IMG/VR virus record: IMGVR_UViG_3300028840_007886
Span: 1 to 25,887 of that record
Strand: one strand, 5' to 3'
Source: a virus
Length of the DNA: 25,887 bases
Positions 1-25,887 of the stretch are shown here, piece by piece (positions within the stretch are counted from its first letter, which is position 1; every line of letters begins with the position of its first letter). The notes under the pieces were generated by a model that searched no databases, was not told where the DNA came from, and was given only the letters and a program-made list of their open reading frames with translations. A program made the position numbers and the translations under genes.

Positions 1-18
1 TTATGTTATTTATCAATC

Positions 19-183
19 ATGGCATTATCACAAAAACAAAAAGATACAGCATTTGAAATTACTGTAAACATTCTTAAGTGTTTCTGCAATGGCGGATCAA
101 ATAAAGAAACGCCAGATATTTTAGTAACAAACCTTTTCAATGCTATTTGCACCCTTGCTGAAGATAATAATTTGTTTGAATGA
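19..183 (+). CDS. Possible small hypothetical protein (may be the C-terminal end of a longer gene)
   Basis: This 54-residue plus-strand frame runs from an ATG at 19 to TGA at 181-183. The same frame is also open back to base 1, so the true start may lie outside the window. The composition looks protein-like, with a hydrophilic start (ALSQKQKDTAF), three cysteines and a hydrophobic C-terminal half. No ribosome binding site is visible before the ATG. It is the only plausible plus-strand gene and is convergent with the tail genes: its stop ends at 183 and the stop of the minus-strand neighbour begins at 184. An opposing minus-strand frame covers 6-218, but it would overlap the gene at 184-411 and lacks a good start. 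I recognise no family and assign no function. Confidence 0.45.
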   Translation: MALSQKQKDTAFEITVNILKCFCNGGSNKETPDILVTNLFNAICTLAEDNNLFE

Positions 184-411
184 TTATTCTTCAGGATAAT
201 CATTAGCCAATTCACCATCAGCCTTCAATTCTCGAATTGCAATTTTTCTCATCCTTTTATTTATCTTTTCATTGTCGTTATTAACATCTTTTAAGCTTTT
301 ATAAAAATCCTTAACTGCTTCAACAGTATCTTTTAAGAATTCCTGACCTTCAAATTGTTTCCTGGCAAAAGCACCTACTACAATTCCATTTTCTTTAAGT
401 ACATATGGCAT
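184..411 (-). CDS. Small hypothetical protein downstream of tail fibre
   Basis: A 75-residue protein starting MPYVLKENGIVVGAFA. A strong AGGAGG ribosome binding site lies just upstream of the ATG at 411, which supports both the start and the reality of the gene. The N-terminus looks like a short beta-hairpin (YVLKENGIVVGAF). The remainder is charged and probably helical, ending DYPEE. There is no signal peptide or membrane segment. It is the last gene of the minus-strand tail operon, 14 bases after the tail fibre gene, a place where many phages carry a tail-fibre chaperone or a small unknown protein. The resemblance to fibre chaperones is limited to the first 20 or so residues and is too weak for a functional call. 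Confidence 0.75.
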   Translation of the reverse strand: MPYVLKENGIVVGAFARKQFEGQEFLKDTVEAVKDFYKSLKDVNNDNEKINKRMRKIAIRELKADGELANDYPEE

Positions 412-425
412 TATTACCTCCTTTT

Positions 426-1391
426 TTAAACAGCATCCTTTCCTCTTGGATCAATCCAACCAACAGTAGCTGCATTTATAGTTGTATTTGCCTGATTTGA
501 TCTCACTCGAACTTGAGAAGATGTGTTAGTTCTAGTTCTGATATTACCATTAACAGCCTGCTCTGTAGTACCTCTTCTGCTTGAAGCCCTACCAACAGAA
601 GCATCAGCAGTTTCATCATCCTGATCAAGTGAGGTAACATAAACAGCAGCTCCGGCAGGAGCTTGAACATGATAATTCTGTATGGCAAAAGTCTGAACTG
701 CATCAGGAGTTGATAATGTATAAGAAACTGCTGTAATAGGTTGAACAGCAGTGGCAATGTCAGCAGGAGGAGCATCCCATAAAAACTCATCTCCTTTTTG
801 AGAATAACCAATAATATTTGAAGATCCATCAGTTAATACAGAACCTACCCTTCTATATTTTGAATAACCAGAAGGAGCAGCATCAGCAATAAGATTTGAA
901 GCTGTTAAGCTTGTATCAAAACCGGCATCAAGTGTTCCATCAGTCTTACCTATAATAAATAAATGATACCATGTATCAATAGCTAATCCTAAACCAGAAG
1001 GAAAACCGCCTTGATTTGAACCTTCTGCCCAGTTTGCATCAATCTGTTTTACAAGAGCTGATGTTAAACTCATTGTAAGATCATCAGTATCTGCTCTGCA
1101 TTTACCAATATTAAATTTAATATCATGATCAGCATCAGTATCATTTTCAGTTATTATTCCATCAATAAATCCTCTTGGGATAGGAGATATCTGAAGCAAT
1201 GCCTGAAAAAGCTGATTCCTTGTATCAGTACTGGCATCAAGTAAGGTGATTCCTGCTTGTTCAATTACATTTGATATCTCTTCCTGAACAGCATTGAGCC
1301 AATCATCATTAACAGTAGTACCCGGAGGACCATCCGTAAATAAAGCAACTCCTCCAACGATCTCGCGATTTGTACCTTCTGTTCTATGCAT
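426..1391 (-). CDS. Tail fibre protein
   Basis: A 321-residue protein whose N-terminus (MHRTEG, then a segment with TVNDDWLNAVQEEISNVIE at about 26-45) is the typical virion-attachment start of phage and prophage tail fibres. The middle (residues 60-200) is rich in G, D, T and S with predicted beta structure. The C-terminal third carries alternating R/S/N/T stretches before GWIDPRGKDAV, as in trimeric fibre tips. The start is supported by an AGGAGG about 6 bases upstream. Its place after the baseplate genes fits a host-recognition fibre on the baseplate, but receptor specificity cannot be read from the sequence. I saw no sign of a diversity-generating template or variable repeat. Confidence 0.8.
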   Translation of the reverse strand: MHRTEGTNREIVGGVALFTDGPPGTTVNDDWLNAVQEEISNVIEQAGITLLDASTDTRNQLFQALLQISPIPRGFIDGIITENDTDADHDIKFNIGKCRADTDDLTMSLTSALVKQIDANWAEGSNQGGFPSGLGLAIDTWYHLFIIGKTDGTLDAGFDTSLTASNLIADAAPSGYSKYRRVGSVLTDGSSNIIGYSQKGDEFLWDAPPADIATAVQPITAVSYTLSTPDAVQTFAIQNYHVQAPAGAAVYVTSLDQDDETADASVGRASSRRGTTEQAVNGNIRTRTNTSSQVRVRSNQANTTINAATVGWIDPRGKDAV

Positions 1392-1402
1392 AACCCCTCC
1401 TT

Positions 1403-1981
1403 TTATTCTCCTTTAACTGCCCAGTCTGGATCGAACCGCCATCTGCTACTGGTTATTTCAGAAACAGCATCCCCTTCAACAATTCCTACAAGTGCTACAC
1501 TGTTTGTTGTGATAGTAACAGATATAGAACCGTATGATCCATGTGACTGAAGATATAATGGTCTTCCTATAAAGCCAGAAAATCTTGCAGATAATCCCGA
1601 ATCATAAACAAGTCCTTTTCTTAATATCTGGCACTGACTGTCATTGGATGTATATGAATTCCCTGCAACTCCCATAACAGGATTTTCAGTAGAATCTGAA
1701 ACCATTGCGTTCTTCCAGACATTTGAAGCGTTCAGATAAAGTACATTACCAAATGATAAATCTTCACCGGCTATCTGGCTGTAATCGATCCAACCTCTTA
1801 TGGTTTTATCAGTTGTAATCTGACCTGGAGCAGGCTGTTTCCAGAAATCACCTGGATAAGCAAATTCAGCTTCCATTATAGTTACTACAAAATTCCTTAA
1901 ATCTTGAGCAGAAATCTGCCCAGTTACATTATCAGCAAAAAGTGTTAAAATTGCTGCTCTTGTCTGTTGTGTATCAGCCAT
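1403..1981 (-). CDS. Tail-tip or fibre-associated structural protein, unknown
   Basis: A 192-residue protein. Residues 5-35 (TRAAILTLFADNV, then ISAQDLRNFVVTI) form a helical head that recurs at the start of phage fibre and baseplate-attached proteins. The remainder is beta-rich, with a cement-like stretch around residues 75-105 (LSFGNVLYLNAS, NPVMGVAGNSY). It starts with a good GGAGG site before the ATG at 1981. Lying between the Mu gp48-like baseplate protein and the tail fibre, it is probably an adaptor or an extra short fibre. That role is inferred from position and composition; I do not recognise the full-length family. Confidence 0.7.
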   Translation of the reverse strand: MADTQQTRAAILTLFADNVTGQISAQDLRNFVVTIMEAEFAYPGDFWKQPAPGQITTDKTIRGWIDYSQIAGEDLSFGNVLYLNASNVWKNAMVSDSTENPVMGVAGNSYTSNDSQCQILRKGLVYDSGLSARFSGFIGRPLYLQSHGSYGSISVTITTNSVALVGIVEGDAVSEITSSRWRFDPDWAVKGE

Positions 1982-1992
1982 CTTTTCCTCCT

Positions 1993-2742
1993 TTATACAG
2001 GTTTATTAAAATCATTGTTAAATTCTCTAAAACTAAAAGCTCCGCCTTCTCTTCTGTCAAAAGCACTTGAAAATTGTAATCCGTTAAATGATCCAGTTAA
2101 TCCAAGTTCAGAAGGCATTGAATCAAAGGCTTCATTAAATGCTGAACTAAATTCCGGACCAACAAATTCAAAATTAACTGAAGTATGAGCCGGTTTATAT
2201 TTTTTAATCATGCATGTTAATGCTTCAATGCCTGGAATCCTTTTTAAAGAATCACCTGATTGACTGCTACCAGATATAAACTCTATTATTTCTCCGCTTC
2301 CTTCAATCTGGACAAGCCAATAAAATATATTTGTTTGATCACCACATTCATCTCCTGAAGCTCCCAGTCCACTCCAGAAAGGAGTGAATTCTACAATATC
2401 AACTGTAAAGCCTAAAGCTGCTGCAAGTGAAATAAAATATCCTTTATCCTGTTGACCTCTTGCAATTAACTTTGAATGAGCAAGATTTCTTCTTTCCTGA
2501 ATTGTTTCTTCACTTTGAGAACATTCATCAGGAAGGCCTAGATCATTTTCATGATTAGTCAATAATTCAGAAGTCGTTCTTGTATCTCTTTCAACTTTTA
2601 AATCATTTGATCTTGAATCAAGCCTGTTAAGCTCATCTCCCATACCTCTTAATAATTCGCTTAATACAGAATCAGGATCTCGATTCCATGCAGAACCGCG
2701 AGGAAGAAGAGCTTGCAACATTTTAAAATAGTCTTTGGCCAT
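1993..2742 (-). CDS. Mu gp48-like baseplate protein (YmfQ/DUF2313 family)
   Basis: A 249-residue protein with the family's characteristic opening (YFKMLQALLPRGSAWNRD), the acidic helical segment around 25-60 and the LGLPDEC...ERR motif near 67-90. In Mu-like tails this protein joins the baseplate wedge and helps attach the fibres. Residues 1-180 are conventional. The last 70 residues instead contain two similar aromatic segments (FSSAFNEAFDS and FSSAFDRREGGAF), an internal repeat that may be the local fibre-docking tail. It lies 3 bases after the gp47-like gene, so translation is probably coupled. The family call is strong; the repeat's function is inference. Confidence 0.9.
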   Translation of the reverse strand: MAKDYFKMLQALLPRGSAWNRDPDSVLSELLRGMGDELNRLDSRSNDLKVERDTRTTSELLTNHENDLGLPDECSQSEETIQERRNLAHSKLIARGQQDKGYFISLAAALGFTVDIVEFTPFWSGLGASGDECGDQTNIFYWLVQIEGSGEIIEFISGSSQSGDSLKRIPGIEALTCMIKKYKPAHTSVNFEFVGPEFSSAFNEAFDSMPSELGLTGSFNGLQFSSAFDRREGGAFSFREFNNDFNKPV

Positions 2743-2745
2743 TAA

Positions 2746-3840
2746 TTAAGCACTCCCAAAAGTAATTGTTCCTAGAACATGGACTTGAGCAGCAGTAGCA
2801 CTTACATTAGAACTTGGAGAAACAAGTGTATGATAATTTTCATTTGCTGAAAGACTTATTGCTTCATTAATCCTTGACAAATAAAGTGTGTTTCCTGGTC
2901 CGCCATCTCTTAAAATTAAATCCTCAAGTTGTTCCTGAACTTCAGCCTGAACTTCTGAAGTATTAGGATTTATATTTATTTCAAAATCAACTGATAATTC
3001 TGTTAAGGCCGGTACAAAAAATCCTGGTTCAGCAGTTACCGGAATTCCGACTGTTTCTCCTGAACCCGGATCTTCATGCTCTATAATATAATCATATACT
3101 GTCTGTCTTTGAGCATCAGTAGGAATAATTGAAAGATCATCATCTCTTACAAATGTTAATGCTATTGTTCCAACTCCTTGATAAAGAGGAAATGACCAAG
3201 CTCTTGTAACTCCTGAAACTTCTAAAGCCCAGGCAACATAATCAAAATCAGCTCCGCCATGGGGAGGTAATCTTTTTCTTGATAATACCCTTTCCCTTAA
3301 AGCATAATCTGTTTCTTCATCTGTTCCGCCAATTAAACCATCTGAATCAACAGTAGCATCATTATCAATTCCGGCAATAGGACTTATAAAACTTACTGTT
3401 GTTCCGGCATCCTGATTTCCATCAGATCCGCCTTCTTGTGCTTCAAGTGATATTGTGGCTACTCCCAAAGCGGTTGTTACATCAGCAGTTGTTTCATAAA
3501 TAACACCGTCAACAGTTTGAAGCTCAGTTCCTTCAGGAATAAGAATCCCATTTCCGCCTGTAGCTCCTGCTTCTCCTGTTGATTTTGCGGCCGCTTTTCT
3601 TGTAATACCATATTCATCAGCTATGTTTTCAAGGTCTTCAGTATCAGCAGATGAAGCAAATAATTGATCCGCTTCATATTCTAAAAAACCATATAGAAGA
3701 TGTATAGCTCCTGCCCAAATACGAGTAAAAACTTTAAGAACCGATCTTCTTAAAAGAGAATTTGCTCCAGTTATTCTTGTTTCAATATCAGAGCTTATTC
3801 TTTCAACCAGAGTGTCAAGTGTAGGTCTATCAAATGGCAT
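2746..3840 (-). CDS. Baseplate J/gp47-like protein
   Basis: A 364-residue protein of the baseplate J family (Mu gp47, P2 gpJ, T4 gp6-related wedge protein). It shows the usual order: a helical N-terminus ending in LYGFLEYEADQLF (about 48-60), the SADTEDLENIADEYGI motif (about 63-79), a beta domain starting GNGILIPEGTEL, and an ETDYALRERVLSRKR segment near 180. A DYVAWALEVSGVTRAW segment follows near 200. It builds the wedges that open when the sheath contracts. The start at 3840 overlaps the end of the gp46-like gene by 11 bases, supporting coupled translation. Length and motifs look intact. Confidence 0.95.
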   Translation of the reverse strand: MPFDRPTLDTLVERISSDIETRITGANSLLRRSVLKVFTRIWAGAIHLLYGFLEYEADQLFASSADTEDLENIADEYGITRKAAAKSTGEAGATGGNGILIPEGTELQTVDGVIYETTADVTTALGVATISLEAQEGGSDGNQDAGTTVSFISPIAGIDNDATVDSDGLIGGTDEETDYALRERVLSRKRLPPHGGADFDYVAWALEVSGVTRAWSFPLYQGVGTIALTFVRDDDLSIIPTDAQRQTVYDYIIEHEDPGSGETVGIPVTAEPGFFVPALTELSVDFEININPNTSEVQAEVQEQLEDLILRDGGPGNTLYLSRINEAISLSANENYHTLVSPSSNVSATAAQVHVLGTITFGSA

Positions 3841-4324
3841 TGAATTGAACCTCCCATTTATCAGCGTATTTAATTGAAACCTGTAATACTGTTTCAGATC
3901 CTCTTTTTATTGTTGCAGAAAAAACAAAACGATCATTACCAGGAGTTCCCTGCCTTTCAGTAGTAACATCAATGCTATCAGCAACAAGATCATCAATCAT
4001 CCATTGAAGCGATTCCTGAATATATGTTTTCCCTAATGTTAAAATATTTTCAGTTGTTTTAGATCTTTCTAAAAGCCAGAGTCTTGATCCAATCTGATCA
4101 CCTTCTTCAATCGGCTTTGCCAGATCACCCCACCATCCCCGCTTATCATCACTTCTTGGATCAGGAAGAATATCATCATCTTTAGCTCTTCTGTCAGTAA
4201 ATAAACTTATAAATACTGCTGTTTCAAGACCTCCATCAGATTCAAGATCGTTAGTGGAAGTAAGAAAAGATAAATCACCTTCAAGAAGAATATTATCCCA
4301 TTTTATTTTTACATCTCCACTCAT
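3830..4324 (-). CDS. Mu gp46-like baseplate protein (GP46 family, T4 gp25-like role)
   Basis: A 164-residue protein carrying the family's diagnostic middle: LETAVFISLFTDRRA at about 32-46, then DKRGWWGD at about 60-67. A SRLWLLERSKTTE helix (about 79-91) follows, and an EDxV-like C-terminal beta region. Members sit in the baseplate wedge and are thought to initiate sheath assembly. The start codon overlaps the last codon of the spike gene (4321-4324), and its own end overlaps the gp47-like start by 11 bases. The gene is therefore embedded in a translationally coupled baseplate cluster. No anomaly seen. Confidence 0.93.
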   Translation of the reverse strand: MSGDVKIKWDNILLEGDLSFLTSTNDLESDGGLETAVFISLFTDRRAKDDDILPDPRSDDKRGWWGDLAKPIEEGDQIGSRLWLLERSKTTENILTLGKTYIQESLQWMIDDLVADSIDVTTERQGTPGNDRFVFSATIKRGSETVLQVSIKYADKWEVQFNAI

Positions 4325-4977
4325 TCGGCTAATACCTTTGTGCTTCCTACTGATATTGGATGTTTATGCCCGGCATTTACATCTGTTTCATCTCCTGCCC
4401 TTATTACTCCGGCAGTTGCTCCAGAACCAAGCTTAACGGTATTTCCTGCTTCAACTATTACATCTCCGGCTGTAGATTCTATGCTTACATTTCCGGTTGT
4501 GGAAATTATATTAACATTAGTATTGGCAGTTATATCAACTTTTTTAGTAGAATTAATATTAACATTATTTACAGCATTTAAAGTAACATTATTAGATCCA
4601 TCAATAACAGTACTTCCATTGGCCTTAAAATGAATTCTCTGGTTTGAATTAATGTCATCCGGACCATAAACAGCTACTTCTCCTTCAACTAAATCAATTG
4701 GCCTTTTATCCCTGTCATGAATACAAAAAGCAATCCCCTGATCTCTGTTACCATTGGCAAATATACTTAAAACTTCAGTATCAGAATAAGGAAATGAAGC
4801 AAAACCGTATTCCTGAAGTCTTCTTAAATCAGAAATAACTTCTCCGCTTAAAAAAGTTGCCTGAATTAATTGAGTGTATCCACTGTTATCAAGAATTTTT
4901 AATATACCAACACTAAATATCCTTGATATTTTCCTCTTAATCGGAGCAACCATTCTGTCAAATATAGACTTGTTCAT
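4321..4977 (-). CDS. Baseplate spike protein, Mu gp45/P2 gpV-like
   Basis: A 218-residue protein starting MNKSIFDRMVAPIKRK at 4977, immediately after the stop of the hub gene (TAATATG). The frame is open upstream to 5073, but that extension lies wholly inside the hub gene, so 4977 is preferred. Residues 1-120 match the Mu gp45 OB-fold region (GYTQLIQATFLSGE, VLSIFANGNRDQGIAF). Residues 120-195 are short repeating beta strands (VTLNAV, VNINST, VDITANT, VSIESTAG) typical of the triple-stranded needle. The C-terminal HKH at residues 204-206 matches the HxH motif that binds an iron ion at the tip of Mu gp45 and P2 gpV. It pierces the outer membrane. Confidence 0.93.
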   Translation of the reverse strand: MNKSIFDRMVAPIKRKISRIFSVGILKILDNSGYTQLIQATFLSGEVISDLRRLQEYGFASFPYSDTEVLSIFANGNRDQGIAFCIHDRDKRPIDLVEGEVAVYGPDDINSNQRIHFKANGSTVIDGSNNVTLNAVNNVNINSTKKVDITANTNVNIISTTGNVSIESTAGDVIVEAGNTVKLGSGATAGVIRAGDETDVNAGHKHPISVGSTKVLAE

Positions 4978-14232: not shown

Positions 14233-14823
14233 TTATGAAGCTCTTTCTGTCACATTACTTTTACCAAGCACTTGCCATGCATCGCCATTGGCAGAATATA
14301 ATTTTAAAAAACTTCTTTGTTTCATGATAAGACTTGACAGGTCTGATCCGGTTGTTCCTGTAATTGAAGCCCCTGTTCCTTGAACATTCCACTGTAAGCT
14401 TATATCTGCACCAACAGCAGTATCTTTTCCTTCAACAGTTAAAATTTGACCAGAAACAGATACACAAGGAGTAGAAACATTACCATTGCTTATTGCATTT
14501 GTAATAGTTAATGGAAAAAGTCCTATTAAAATTGGAAATTGAACAAAATCAACAACTCCCTGCCATGATAAAATGCCTGCCGTTAAAATAGCAGCATTTG
14601 TATTATCAAAATACATATTGCCACTATTTCTTAAACCTAGCATATAATCATGAAGCATAATTCCGCTTAAAGCTAATCCTGTAAAATCAGCATCAAAGAA
14701 TTTAAACGATCCATCTTCTCTTACAAAAATCAGATCACCGTTTCTTCTAAAGCCTGCCTTTGTAGTAATACTGCCTTCAACATCATCAACCGGATAATGT
14801 GCAGCTACTTGTTCAAGTGTCAT
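14233..14823 (-). CDS. Member C of a three-gene paralogous cluster, unknown structural-like
   Basis: A 196-residue protein related to the two genes just upstream. It shares the N-terminal block FVREDGSFKFFDADFTGLAL (about 33-52) with the gene at 15389-15931, and the C-terminal block GSDLSS...FLKLYSANGDAWQVL (about 158-186) with both. The middle 90 residues differ completely, and it has a longer start (MTLEQVAAHYPVDDVEG). An AAGGA site precedes the ATG. It looks beta-rich with no membrane segment or signal peptide. Position after the capsid gene suggests a capsid surface or fibre protein, an inference only. I do not recognise the family. Confidence 0.72.
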   Translation of the reverse strand: MTLEQVAAHYPVDDVEGSITTKAGFRRNGDLIFVREDGSFKFFDADFTGLALSGIMLHDYMLGLRNSGNMYFDNTNAAILTAGILSWQGVVDFVQFPILIGLFPLTITNAISNGNVSTPCVSVSGQILTVEGKDTAVGADISLQWNVQGTGASITGTTGSDLSSLIMKQRSFLKLYSANGDAWQVLGKSNVTERAS

Positions 14824-17968: not shown

Positions 17969-18730
17969 TTAATTGTTTCCTTTCGTTAAGTTTGATTTAA
18001 CATTGTTAATAATTACGTCAAGAATTTGAAGCAAATCCTCATCACCGTTCTTGTCTCCGCCTTTGTCTTCATTCTCCCTTAACTCCCTCAAGGAAGGCTT
18101 TGCAAGGGTAACTATAAACTGAGCAGCTTTTTTAGACATATTTCCTGAATCCCTCAGGAATTCTTCTAACTGCCTTTCAGTTTTTATCCCTTCTACATCT
18201 TTTATATTTGTTATTTGACCTCTTCTGGCCATGGGAAATGTAACAAGGCTTATTTCCCATAAATCAATCTGTTTTAAATATCTGCAACCTTTTGAACTGT
18301 CATATTCAAAAGATTCTGGAAGTCTCATCCCATCCTTATCTCTTGGAAAATCCCATCCGATTGATAACCCGGTTAATCCTCCGCCTTTTGCTGCTACAAA
18401 AGTTTCATTGGCAAGCATTGTTCCTTTAGCTTCATTCGGATCTCCTATAAACATTTTGCCTTCAACTTCAAGACCTTTATCACGTTCAATAAGGCTGTTC
18501 CATACACCAATAGGAGTTTTATCTTTCCGGCCATGCTGTGAAAGCATTACCACTCCTGTTCCGTTTCTTCCGCCTGCCTTAATAGTCTTATCAAAAGCAC
18601 CTTTTACAATAATATCTCCGCCATCATCAGGAGGACCGCCAAAAGGAGATGCTAAACCTTTAATAATGCCTTCATCGCTGATTCCATCTTCTTTCACTGC
18701 AAAAGGCACTTCTAAATATTTTGTTTTCAT
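17969..18730 (-). CDS. Prohead maturation protease (HK97 gp4-like, peptidase family U35/S78)
   Basis: A 253-residue protein with the prohead protease plan. IIKGLASPFGGPPDDGGDII lies near 22-41, a catalytic-type His66 is in LSQHGRKDKTPIG, Ser123 is in LTGLSIGW, and Glu158 is in IDLWEISLVTFPM. Spacing of these three agrees with the His-Ser-Glu arrangement known for HK97 gp4. The last 70 residues are charged and probably removed by self-cleavage. It cleaves the delta domain of the capsid protein during head maturation. A GGGAGGAG site precedes the ATG. Located between minor head and capsid genes, the normal order. Confidence 0.94.
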   Translation of the reverse strand: MKTKYLEVPFAVKEDGISDEGIIKGLASPFGGPPDDGGDIIVKGAFDKTIKAGGRNGTGVVMLSQHGRKDKTPIGVWNSLIERDKGLEVEGKMFIGDPNEAKGTMLANETFVAAKGGGLTGLSIGWDFPRDKDGMRLPESFEYDSSKGCRYLKQIDLWEISLVTFPMARRGQITNIKDVEGIKTERQLEEFLRDSGNMSKKAAQFIVTLAKPSLRELRENEDKGGDKNGDEDLLQILDVIINNVKSNLTKGNN

Positions 18731-22484: not shown

Positions 22485-24032
22485 TTAAACTTGCCTTACC
22501 CTGAAATGAGGTCCTTTGTCTTCAACAGGAGCAAAAGCATAAATTAAACTGTCAGCATTGTTTGGAGATTTCACTCCCCTTGCTTTCATATCCTGTTTGG
22601 ATTCTATTTTTATTTTACCGTTATCTGTATATTTATATTTTGGCATTGAAAGTTCCGCAATTGTTTCACGATCATCAGGGATTGAAATCATATCATCAGG
22701 ATCATGTTCTCTAATGCCTTCTCTTGTTTCAAAGGTTTTTTCAAACCGTCTTCTGACTTTCCACCATGCTTCAGCCCTTAGATTTAAAAACTGATCGCGG
22801 TTTTTTTTGCCTGGGATTTGATTTTCTGGATCTGGCTTGATATACCATCCGGCAGTCGGTTTACTGGCTGATGAAAAGCCTTCAGCCTTTAAATCTTTAT
22901 ATTCTTTATGATCAAGCTCATCCCTTACACTTACACCTATGCCTACAGTATCAAACTTTAAAACAAGCATGCCATTCTCAAGGCAAAGATGATAAGCTTT
23001 TCTGGCACTTTCTGCCGGAGTGCCTTTTTTCCATGATTTAATTGGTTTTGGAACAACAGAACCTTCCCTGAAGCAAATCGCATTTAAATCTCCGCCATCA
23101 TCGGCAACATCTAATCCTGCAACTTTTTCTCCTTCACCCGGTATTTCAAAATTCACTGCAGCCTTTACCCATCTGGCCGGAATACAAATTCCTTCAGCAG
23201 AAGCACCTGGATCTCGATCAACTTCTTGAGCAAAAATTATAGGGTCTTCTTTTTCTTTCCGCTTATCATACCATTCCTGGTCTTTTCGTTTATCATCAGT
23301 CCAGTCAAATTCAAATACAGGATATTTACCGGAGAACCGTTTTTGATAAAACAGGTTTCCAATTCCGTTATGAGTTGAAACGTCAATTTTGACATCAGAG
23401 TTGTGAGAAAGAGCGGCATCGATCTTCAAAGGTCTTTCATAGAAAGCAGATTCATCCTTGAAATACATTGTTGATCTGCCGCCCCTTCCTATGTTATCTC
23501 CGCCTTCCCCGGCAATGACAGCCCCATTAACAGGATTTTTGATTTTTAAATGAGTAGCATGTTTATCAATATTGAAAGTTCTTGGAAGGAATTCATTTGG
23601 AAGAAGTCTAAGGCCTATTCTCATCTTTTCAAAAATACTGTCTGGATCTCCGATTGTATCAACAAGCTTTTCCTTTCTTGATCCAAAACCTATATTGAAT
23701 CCATCAAAATAAATCCATCTGTGAATTGAATACCAACAATTAAGCCAAGTTGCTCCAGCATCCCGACACTTATCAACAACCCCATCTTCCTCAAGTTCAA
23801 CACGATCATCAAGCCAGTCAAAATAATCTTCCTGCTTTGTCCAAAGGACCATTGGAAGTGTTTTTAAATTCTTCCGCCTGGGATCATGAGTCCATGCCCA
23901 GTCATTAACAAAACTTATTGGATTGAATTTATAGTGATAGTTTATGGCATCAAGATCCACATTGCCGGATCGAATTTTTTCAAGCCGTTTTACACGATCA
24001 ATAATTATTTTTTGGTAAATATCGTTATCCAT
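22485..24032 (-). CDS. terL: Terminase large subunit
   Basis: A 515-residue packaging motor protein. The start chosen is ATG at 24032, overlapping the small-subunit stop by 8 bases; a frame extension to 24071 would lie inside that gene. ATPase features are CRDAGATW (89-96, Walker A-like), STMYFKDESA (187-196, Walker B with Asp193-Glu194) and the coupling motif DVSTHNG (217-223). The nuclease domain opens with AGLDVADDGGD around 305-315, which supplies metal-binding aspartates. Further acidic residues lie in LKFDTVGIGV and in NNADSLIYAF near the end. It cuts concatemeric DNA and pumps it into the prohead through the portal. All key residues appear present. Confidence 0.95.
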   Translation of the reverse strand: MDNDIYQKIIIDRVKRLEKIRSGNVDLDAINYHYKFNPISFVNDWAWTHDPRRKNLKTLPMVLWTKQEDYFDWLDDRVELEEDGVVDKCRDAGATWLNCWYSIHRWIYFDGFNIGFGSRKEKLVDTIGDPDSIFEKMRIGLRLLPNEFLPRTFNIDKHATHLKIKNPVNGAVIAGEGGDNIGRGGRSTMYFKDESAFYERPLKIDAALSHNSDVKIDVSTHNGIGNLFYQKRFSGKYPVFEFDWTDDKRKDQEWYDKRKEKEDPIIFAQEVDRDPGASAEGICIPARWVKAAVNFEIPGEGEKVAGLDVADDGGDLNAICFREGSVVPKPIKSWKKGTPAESARKAYHLCLENGMLVLKFDTVGIGVSVRDELDHKEYKDLKAEGFSSASKPTAGWYIKPDPENQIPGKKNRDQFLNLRAEAWWKVRRRFEKTFETREGIREHDPDDMISIPDDRETIAELSMPKYKYTDNGKIKIESKQDMKARGVKSPNNADSLIYAFAPVEDKGPHFRVRQV

Positions 24033-24636
24033 TAACAAGTTCTCTGTAAGCTCTGGCAGCTTCTTCAGCATCCATTTTGTGAGTTACTTTACCTTCAACT
24101 TCACCGGCCAGTTTTAAATTTATATTCGTGTCTGCATGCATACCAAGACATTTTTCAAGCCGGTTTAATGCTTGGCCTTTATCCCAAAACTTGTAAATAT
24201 ATTTTTTTATGATCGGCATGCCTTTAAGATCATATTCAAGCTGTTTAACTTCAAAGTGTGATATGCACTGCCTGACATTTTCAGGAAGCTTATGAACTGG
24301 AATATTACATCCGTTTTCATCCATTAAATCCGCTATATCCGATCTGGTTAGATTTCGCTCTTCATGAAGTATCTGTGTAGTATCAAGCTCTATCTTATTA
24401 AACATTTCCCTTTTGAGCTTTAAAACATAATTAAGCACTTTTGGAATCTTCATTAGTTTTGCAGCACCATTCCTGGCAGTATCTCTATTGCTTGTTTCAT
24501 ATGCTTGAATATATGCTTCAGTCTGATTCCAATCACATGAAGGCAATAAATCACAATACTTCTTCTGATTAATAGTAAGTTTTAAACAGGCTTTCTTTTT
24601 CTTTGGGGATTTTTTTACGGGAGTTTTCTTCTTCAT
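24025..24636 (-). CDS. terS: Terminase small subunit (Terminase_2-type)
   Basis: A 203-residue DNA-binding subunit. The start MKKKTPVKKSPKKKKA at 24636 is preferred; a TTG start at 24657 would add 7 residues but overlaps a promoter-like stretch. After the lysine-rich N-terminus, residues 20-70 carry the family pattern LTINQKKYCDLL, WNQTEAYIQAYETS and TARNGAAKLMKIPKVLNYV, a helix-turn-helix for recognising the packaging site. A coiled middle and GQALNRLEKCLGMHAD follow. It recognises the phage DNA end and loads the large subunit. The ribosome binding site is weak for either start. Confidence 0.9.
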   Translation of the reverse strand: MKKKTPVKKSPKKKKACLKLTINQKKYCDLLPSCDWNQTEAYIQAYETSNRDTARNGAAKLMKIPKVLNYVLKLKREMFNKIELDTTQILHEERNLTRSDIADLMDENGCNIPVHKLPENVRQCISHFEVKQLEYDLKGMPIIKKYIYKFWDKGQALNRLEKCLGMHADTNINLKLAGEVEGKVTHKMDAEEAARAYRELVNG

Positions 24637-24644
24637 GAGCCAAT

Positions 24645-24690
24645 AATAAACATTCAACCTTAAATTTTGTCAATATTATTTATTATAACA
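24645..24690 (-). promoter_or_regulatory. Candidate promoter for the late operon
   Basis: On the minus strand TGTTATAAT (24690-24682) is an extended -10 element that would start transcription about 40 bases before the terminase ATG. A second set, TTGACA (24673-24668) with TTTATT 17 bases further, would start transcription almost at the ATG and is less convincing. The region lies between an upstream terminator and the first gene of the 24-kb operon, the expected place. Phage late promoters often need their own activator, so consensus matching is only suggestive. Confidence 0.45.
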
Positions 24691-24755: not shown

Positions 24756-24792
24756 AAAAAAACCCCTGTTATTTTCATAATAAGGGTTTTTT
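24756..24792. terminator. Strong bidirectional rho-independent terminator
   Basis: A run of A and CCC (24757-24765) pairs with GGGTTTTTT (24784-24792). After one C-A mismatch, TGTTAT (24767-24772) pairs with ATAATA (24777-24782) around a TTTC loop. The U-run is present on both strands. On the minus strand it would stop transcripts from the genes at the right before the late promoter, separating two transcription units. Confidence 0.8.
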
Positions 24793-24834: not shown

Positions 24835-24856
24835 TTACTCCATAAGAAACTCCTTT
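24835..24856 (-). other. Possible two-codon minigene with strong ribosome binding site
   Basis: AAAGGAG (24856-24850) stands 6 bases before ATG GAG TAA (24843-24835). The site is as good as those of real genes here, but the reading frame ends after Met-Glu. It may be a minigene of the kind known from phage lambda (bar), a remnant of a lost gene, or chance. It lies between the structured RNA and the terminator. Confidence 0.35.
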
Positions 24857-24885: not shown

Positions 24886-25014
24886 AAAAAAACACCTGAA
24901 GCATCAAGACCGGGATTAAGAAGTGGTTTGAGTAGACATCCCTTGGGTTCAGATATAGGCCTTCCTGCAAGGAGTTCAGGCAGTGTGTCACAGACAAAGG
25001 ATGCTTCAAGTGTT
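24886..25014 (-). ncRNA. Candidate structured RNA closed by a 15-bp stem
   Basis: AACACTTGAAGCATC (25014-25000) and GATGCTTCAGGTGTT (24905-24891) form a 15-bp stem. The one non-Watson-Crick pair (25009/24896) is G-U only in the minus-strand RNA and a C-A mismatch on the plus strand, favouring minus transcription. Seven U (24892-24886) follow, like a terminator. Inside are a two-part hairpin (24959-24981: GCCT/AGGC and TCCT/AGGA with a 4-base bulge) and a GGGAT/ATCCC pairing (24912-24916 with 24938-24942), giving a branched fold. It is richer in G+C than its surroundings. It begins 5 bases after the coiled-coil gene stop. I could not match it to a known RNA family. It could also be a DNA site used by terminase. 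Confidence 0.5.
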
Positions 25015-25019
25015 CTTGG

Positions 25020-25376
25020 TTAAAATTTAGCATCTGAAGTTGCTTCTGGTCTTTCTGTTTTTTCTTCTTCTTTTTCAATAACATATTTAGCAAGTTCTTT
25101 AACAGCTTCATCTCTTTCATCTTCAAGGGTTTCATTTAAATCTTCTAATTTTTTTATTTTTTGAGAAGAATCGTGAAGTTTTTTAAGAACATCATCATGG
25201 GATGTTATGTATATTTTCAGTTCTTTTTTCAGTTCTTTTATTGTTTTTTTCATTCTTGAGCTGCCGGATTTATAACCGCGAATTTCCAGGCGGAGTTTTT
25301 TGTTAGTAGCTCCATTCTGGAAGTATTCTTTAACGGTCTGAACTGTTTTTTTAATGAGCTCAATAATTTTTTCCAT
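25020..25376 (-). CDS. Small coiled-coil protein, unknown
   Basis: A 118-residue, highly charged protein. Helical heptad-like segments run through nearly its whole length (MEKIIELIKKTVQTVKEYF, KKTIKELKKELKIYI, KKLHDSSQKIKKLEDLNETL), ending in an acidic, lysine-rich tail and SDAKF. There is no membrane segment or signal peptide. The start at 25376 has only a weak GGAA before it. A better ribosome binding site serves a tiny overlapping frame further upstream (25360-25413), so translation may be coupled. It comes just before the structured RNA and outside the late operon. Function unknown; it is not obviously a lysis or spanin protein. Confidence 0.72.
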   Translation of the reverse strand: MEKIIELIKKTVQTVKEYFQNGATNKKLRLEIRGYKSGSSRMKKTIKELKKELKIYITSHDDVLKKLHDSSQKIKKLEDLNETLEDERDEAVKELAKYVIEKEEEKTERPEATSDAKF

Positions 25377-25413: not shown

Positions 25414-25435
25414 GTTAATCTCCTTTGTTTTTGGT

Positions 25436-25887
25436 TTATCCTATGTTCTCTGTTATTTTTTTAATTTCTTTTGTTACTGGTTGTTCAAGTTGTAATTGTT
25501 CTTTAACAGGTTCAAGGTTTTTATATGCTTCAATAAACTCTTTAGGAAACCATTTTTCCAATTCGGAAGTAAGGACTGTTCTTCCCCAAGATTTTATATT
25601 CCATCTATCAGTCATTAGTTTTTGAGTAATTGGATCAGAATACTGGCATTTATAATTTCCGTATTTTAAATCTTTAAGAACGATCATAAGTTGTTGATGT
25701 GCTATTGTATCAATAGTTCCTTCCAGGTATTCTCTAAAGTCAGCAATTACAGGAAATGAAGTATATTTTCTATTGGCCATTATTTTTTTAGAAGCATTTA
25801 TTACCTGTTCGATATTGAAGTTTTTAAGAGCTTCATAATATATTGTGAGTAGTGTTTCAGTGTATTTTCTATTATAATATTCACAAA
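25436..25887 (-). CDS. Partial early-type phage protein (C-terminal part)
   Basis: The frame is open to the right edge of the window, giving at least 149 residues. The ATG at 25780 has no ribosome binding site and is probably internal. The segment before it (CEYYNRKYTETLLTIYYEAL, then FNIEQVINASKKI) continues the same protein. The plan, a helix with YNR.LTE..L..YYEAL followed by a PVIADFREYLEG motif, then SDPITQKLMTDRW and a WFPKEFIEAYKNL helix, resembles a phage protein family found with replication genes (DUF6475-like, from memory). It is encoded on the same strand as the coiled-coil gene, 22 bases before the next start. A role in replication is inference. Confidence 0.75.
   Translation of the reverse strand, partial: CEYYNRKYTETLLTIYYEALKNFNIEQVINASKKIMANRKYTSFPVIADFREYLEGTIDTIAHQQLMIVLKDLKYGNYKCQYSDPITQKLMTDRWNIKSWGRTVLTSELEKWFPKEFIEAYKNLEPVKEQLQLEQPVTKEIKKITENIG

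Follow-up and report, generated by a model that had tools for sequence, protein, structure and literature searches.

An atypical long-loop, U-tailed hairpin at the boundary between upstream and late genes of a phage

The window analyzed here, the complete 25,887-nucleotide stretch of virus record IMGVR_UViG_3300028840_007886, contains a stem-closed element at positions 24886 to 25014. We regard it as about an even call that this element is an atypical long-loop 3'-end or terminator-like hairpin located where the upstream and late operons meet, and we judge it to be largely ordinary. The closing stem, obtained from the fold and from the pair probabilities, comprises 18 contiguous pairs on the minus strand between a 5' arm at 25017 to 25000 (AAGAACACUUGAAGCAUC) and a 3' arm at 24905 to 24888 (GAUGCUUCAGGUGUUUUU), with predicted probabilities of 0.79 to 1.0. 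Beyond a CC bulge of 2 nt, six further pairs join UUUUAA at 25025 to 25020, which holds the UAA stop codon (25022 to 25020) of the upstream gene, to UUAAAA at 24887 to 24882. A U7 tract (24892 to 24886) takes in the terminal U's of the 3' arm. Across the whole window, the minus strand contains no more than two U7 runs, and both are located at the 3' feet of stems in the same noncoding junction. A sequence-only reading had proposed a 15-bp closing stem with a trailing U7; the U7 was found on the minus strand exactly where it had been placed, and the stem proved to be longer than proposed. Its further claim of a single wobble pair valid only on the minus strand held for the strand but not for the count, since the stem contains two G-U pairs, both of which are mismatches on the plus strand.

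The fold of the element on the minus strand reached -41.9 kcal/mol (z of -4.1) and was better than that of all 200 shuffled sequences. On the plus strand, the z-score was -1.4, with 20 of 200 shuffles equally good. It should be noted that these z-scores were computed on single sequences from one phage, and that the statistics given here are uncorrected for the number of hypotheses examined on this one element. The G+C content of about 44%, compared with 25 to 34% in most neighboring windows, agrees with the elevated value reported earlier. Within the 366-nt noncoding junction only, a stem as long was obtained in 1 of 500 shuffles. When the whole window was shuffled, the stem score was matched in 4 of 100 cases, and an equally good stem is present near position 18653, inside a gene. 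Location aside, the stem is barely out of the ordinary; much of the weight is therefore carried by its location and the U7 tract. An inverted repeat arisen by chance in AT-rich noncoding sequence, which would fit the whole-window shuffles and the intragenic stem, appears very improbable in light of the junction shuffles, the flush U7, and the position at a stop codon. The strongest fold in the scanned region from about 1 to 21840 was found elsewhere, at 14561 to 14700 on the minus strand (z of -8.9, 20 shuffles), inside a 196-amino-acid (aa) gene.

The position of the element in the gene order suggests to which transcript it belongs. To its left, the recognizable phage genes, encoding tail, capsid, portal, TerL, and TerS, are on the minus strand. 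To its right lies a gene (25020 to 25376, minus strand) of 118 aa if ATG 25376 is taken as the start, whose stop codon marks the start of the element, followed by a truncated 149-aa gene fragment of PHROG 10105, a family of unknown function (25436 to 25885, minus strand). The only relative of this fragment in phage records resides in a Vibrio phage, close to genes for a DNA methyltransferase and a nuclease-like protein, a neighborhood that suggests a replication or early module. The terS gene (Terminase_2; 24025 to 24657, minus strand) has its probable start at ATG 24636, and the element lies about 230 to 380 bp upstream of it. The sequence between them contains, on the minus strand, a conventional terminator hairpin at 24757 to 24792 (AAAAAACCCUUAUUAU..AUAACAGGGGUUUUUU, then U) and a perfect extended -10 motif at 24682 to 24690 (TGTTATAAT), unique in the window and the probable promoter of the terS operon. 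The element had been described as lying immediately before the terminase operon, which is a loose description, as a terminator and a promoter-like site intervene. Since the element adjoins the upstream stop codon and both motifs precede terS, it is placed at the tail of the upstream transcript. It is therefore most likely a 3'-end feature of that transcript, not a terS leader or a packaging signal.

Two short open frames were noticed in the same region. An AAGGAG ribosome-site motif at 24855 to 24850, followed after six bases by the two-codon frame ATG GAG TAA (24843 to 24835, minus strand), could represent a minigene of two codons, or what is left of the start of a gene since lost. AAGGAG-N4-8-ATG sites number 12 on the minus strand, and most of them coincide with real gene starts. 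Directly before terS, a possible six-codon leader (MFIIGS, 24653 to 24633) is located behind AAGG; its stop codon overlaps the terS ATG and may couple translation.

Under the 3'-end reading, termination or 3'-end protection would take place at the element itself. Once the second arm has been copied by RNA polymerase, an 18- to 24-bp helix would form over a 94-nt loop next to U7, and helix and U7 together would end the upstream message, or protect it after 3' trimming, just past the 118-aa stop codon. Some 95 nt downstream, the conventional terminator would act as a backup, the late operon would be transcribed on its own from the promoter ahead of terS, and the interior of the element would be filler. 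This proposal is consistent with a stem directly after a stop codon, with wobbles and a U7 tract that favor the transcribed strand, with the rarity of the stem in the junction (1 in 500), with the location of both minus-strand U7 runs at stem feet, with the unstructured interior, and with a consensus extended -10 motif downstream of both stems. In a phage relative (L117), two tandem U-tailed hairpins of different sequence are present before terS in a comparable place.

The loop argues against this assignment. Terminators predicted by TransTermHP have loops of 3 to 13 nt and stem-loops of at most 59 nt, and Term-seq data give a median loop of 4 (PMC12207403); with its 94 nt, the loop of the element lies well beyond the canonical range. 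Neither junction stem was listed by our terminator scan, which requires a loop of 3 to 8 and a short, G+C-richer stem. In common with intrinsic terminators, the element has a stem and then a U7 tract on the transcribed strand, after a stop codon and at an operon boundary. It differs from them in its loop and in its stem of 18 to 24 bp with an A/U-rich base, and it exceeds the stem-loop limit of 59 nt. Because the long loop breaks the usual definition, the element is better considered terminator-like in role than a canonical member of the class. In addition, the strong ribosome-site motif between the element stem and the next terminator hints that transcription continues beyond U7.

The 94-nt interior (24906 to 24999, minus strand) showed no structure beyond the level of shuffled sequences. 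Folded alone, it yielded z-scores of +0.9 (minus strand) and +0.5 (plus strand). The minus-strand value is slightly worse than that of shuffles, and the two internal helices, and with them the description of the element as branched, consequently lost their support. A small CUGC/GCAG hairpin in the interior displays ACUCCUU, which is complementary to the AAGGAG ribosome sites of the phage. However, CUCCUU was present in 57 of 500 shuffled cores, and the duplex energy of the core was equaled by 129 of 500 shuffles for the downstream ribosome site and by 107 of 200 shuffles for 31 gene starts. An anti-Shine-Dalgarno regulator was accordingly rejected as a candidate, with motif frequency and duplex energies both at chance level.

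These results bear on the possibility that the element is a separate small RNA of the phage, about 130 nt long, transcribed from a weak extended -10 motif (TGCTAAATT) within the very end of the upstream gene and terminated at U7. Its paired 5' and 3' ends would provide stability, and its loop would base-pair with mRNAs. Some stable bacterial RNAs, such as 6S RNA and SRP RNA, have paired 5' and 3' ends, and the ends of the element are likewise joined in one helix; unlike these RNAs, it has no Rfam match, interior structure beyond chance, or demonstrated promoter. A small RNA of this kind would account for paired ends with U7 and for the exposed ACUCCUU, but no promoter was detected at scan threshold at the proposed start, no homologue was found, and core structure, CUCCUU frequency, and duplex energies were at chance. 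We consider it a possible but unlikely explanation. The fuller version, in which a minus-strand RNA of about 130 nt, closed by its paired ends and carrying an anti-Shine-Dalgarno loop, is made at the late-operon switch and regulates phage or host translation, is less likely still. Of the small-RNA proposal in the sequence-only reading, the stem-closed minus-strand RNA agrees with fold, wobbles, and U7, but the branched functional core does not agree with an interior at chance level. Regulation of host genes could occur in trans, and the anti-Shine-Dalgarno loop lends it no support.

The earlier remark that the element holds no convincing protein also applies to the present data. A plus-strand frame across the core is free of stop codons and has a coding-like codon score (0.239, with genes of the window as the only control), but no ATG, GTG, or TTG start precedes 24928, and neither a protein family nor a credible homologue was found for it. 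The minus-strand frame through the core likewise had no credible homologue. A stop-free frame that looks as if derived from a gene, a core of higher G+C content flanked by 18-bp arms, and TTAA on both flanks would suit a remnant or copy of a MITE-like inverted-repeat element carried in from a host, with the arms as terminal repeats. The element shares with MITEs its shortness and its near-perfect bounding inverted repeats. It differs in being single-copy, both in the window record and in a 33-kb sister record, and in that neither transposase kinship nor target duplication was demonstrated. No copy was detected in viral contigs, phages, plasmids, or bacterial genome draws (among which the host is probably not represented), and this origin seems quite improbable. 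An integron attC site (RYYYAAC ... GTTRRRY) was rejected: one end reads TTTTAAC, but the other has GTTTTTT in place of GTTRRRY.

Searches for relatives of the element covered RNA families, viral sequences, and bacterial genomes. No Rfam family matched anywhere in the window at the gathering threshold, and a permissive scan gave a single match on the element, scoring 15.6 bits where the cut-off is 100. This is in line with the earlier failure to recognize it as 6S RNA, tmRNA, SRP RNA, or RNase P. Collection of homologous loci had been envisaged; apart from the near-identical record of the same phage, neither the element DNA nor either open frame had a homologue in viral contigs, phage records, or plasmids. 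The element DNA had no homologue in about 1,000 bacterial genomes drawn from two phyla, two classes, and one order, which is weak evidence, as the host is probably not among them. The one strong match in a bacterial genome covers 22 nt (L257) and lacks the second arm, a further point against a mobile element.

A 17-mer of the arm had matches in four other viral contigs: in L003, L005, and L006 the sequence is unrelated and only the arm is common, and L004 has the same 18-mer as L005. When the same arms were allowed to enclose any core, 43 stretches were obtained, and among the best 20 of the 43 by arm extension none shares the core. The best arm matches (L209 and L213) belong to an unrelated element, a perfect inverted repeat whose arms (GAGCTCGAAGCCTGAAGCATC) measure at least 21 bp each and enclose about 80 nt, located at 3597 to 3699 in L209 and 5099 to 5201 in L213 and the same in both. 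The searches did not substantiate any likeness between the core and repeats of sulfate-reducing bacteria, and none is claimed.

Location near terS also raises the possibility of a site that acts as DNA, either pac/cos recognition by the terminase or a replication origin, in which the inverted repeat would provide protein-binding half-sites. Sites of the pac/cos type are often located upstream of terS, and the element folded as single-stranded DNA better than shuffles (z of -2.9). On the other hand, the strand bias of the wobbles and the U7 tract point to RNA, and no conservation was observed near related terminases. Such a site is the least probable of the explanations considered here. Among 171 loci, most with a related TerL, none carries the element sequence. 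Long-range stems upstream of TerL with a z-score above 3 were found in 10 of 70 relatives, with sequences different from the element. Two of the ten were inspected. One is L117, where the stem consists of two tandem terminators; in the other, a phage whose TerL is 45% identical (L011), an inverted repeat of about 200 nt with a stem of about 59 positions (4149 to 4354), stronger than the element, lies immediately upstream of a terS-like gene.

A packaging RNA analogous to phi29 pRNA had been suggested as well. The element resembles pRNA in its size of about 120 to 130 nt and its location near packaging genes. It differs in having neither an Rfam match nor conserved structure, and the packaging machinery here is of the ordinary TerS/TerL type. 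Terminases of this type are not known to require RNA. For a packaging RNA and a pac/cos site alike, we found no positive evidence beyond the distance to terS, given the intervening terminator and extended -10 motif and the absence of the element from the approximately 170 loci.

The only second copy of the element, identical in sequence, was found in IMGVR 3300017971_007146 (33,442 bases), a near-identical record of the same phage. Over the 9.8 kb compared at the end that carries the element, the sole difference between the two records is a 10-bp indel at 25367 to 25376 (TTTTTTCCAT on the plus strand), beside a tandem copy. Without these 10 bp, the 118-aa frame extends to 127 aa; with them, it seems to be interrupted downstream of the best ribosome site (AAGGAG at 25425). 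The indel may reflect phase variation or an assembly error. The sister contig (L260) also extends to the left of the window. Its positions 1 to 4649 encode, on the plus strand, a fragment of a polysaccharide-biosynthesis enzyme, a GNAT acetyltransferase, and an 898-aa MptE-like/TPR protein, next to minus-strand genes that include a CII-type phage regulator, which looks like a host-prophage junction.

If the element is a discrete RNA, it would be one more orphan phage small RNA. Whether it is that or a 3'-end hairpin, it offers no argument that terminase-driven packaging involves an RNA. If it is no more than a 3'-end hairpin, it would explain how this phage separates its upstream and late gene blocks, and it would indicate that long-loop hairpins with a U-tract escape standard definitions of terminators.
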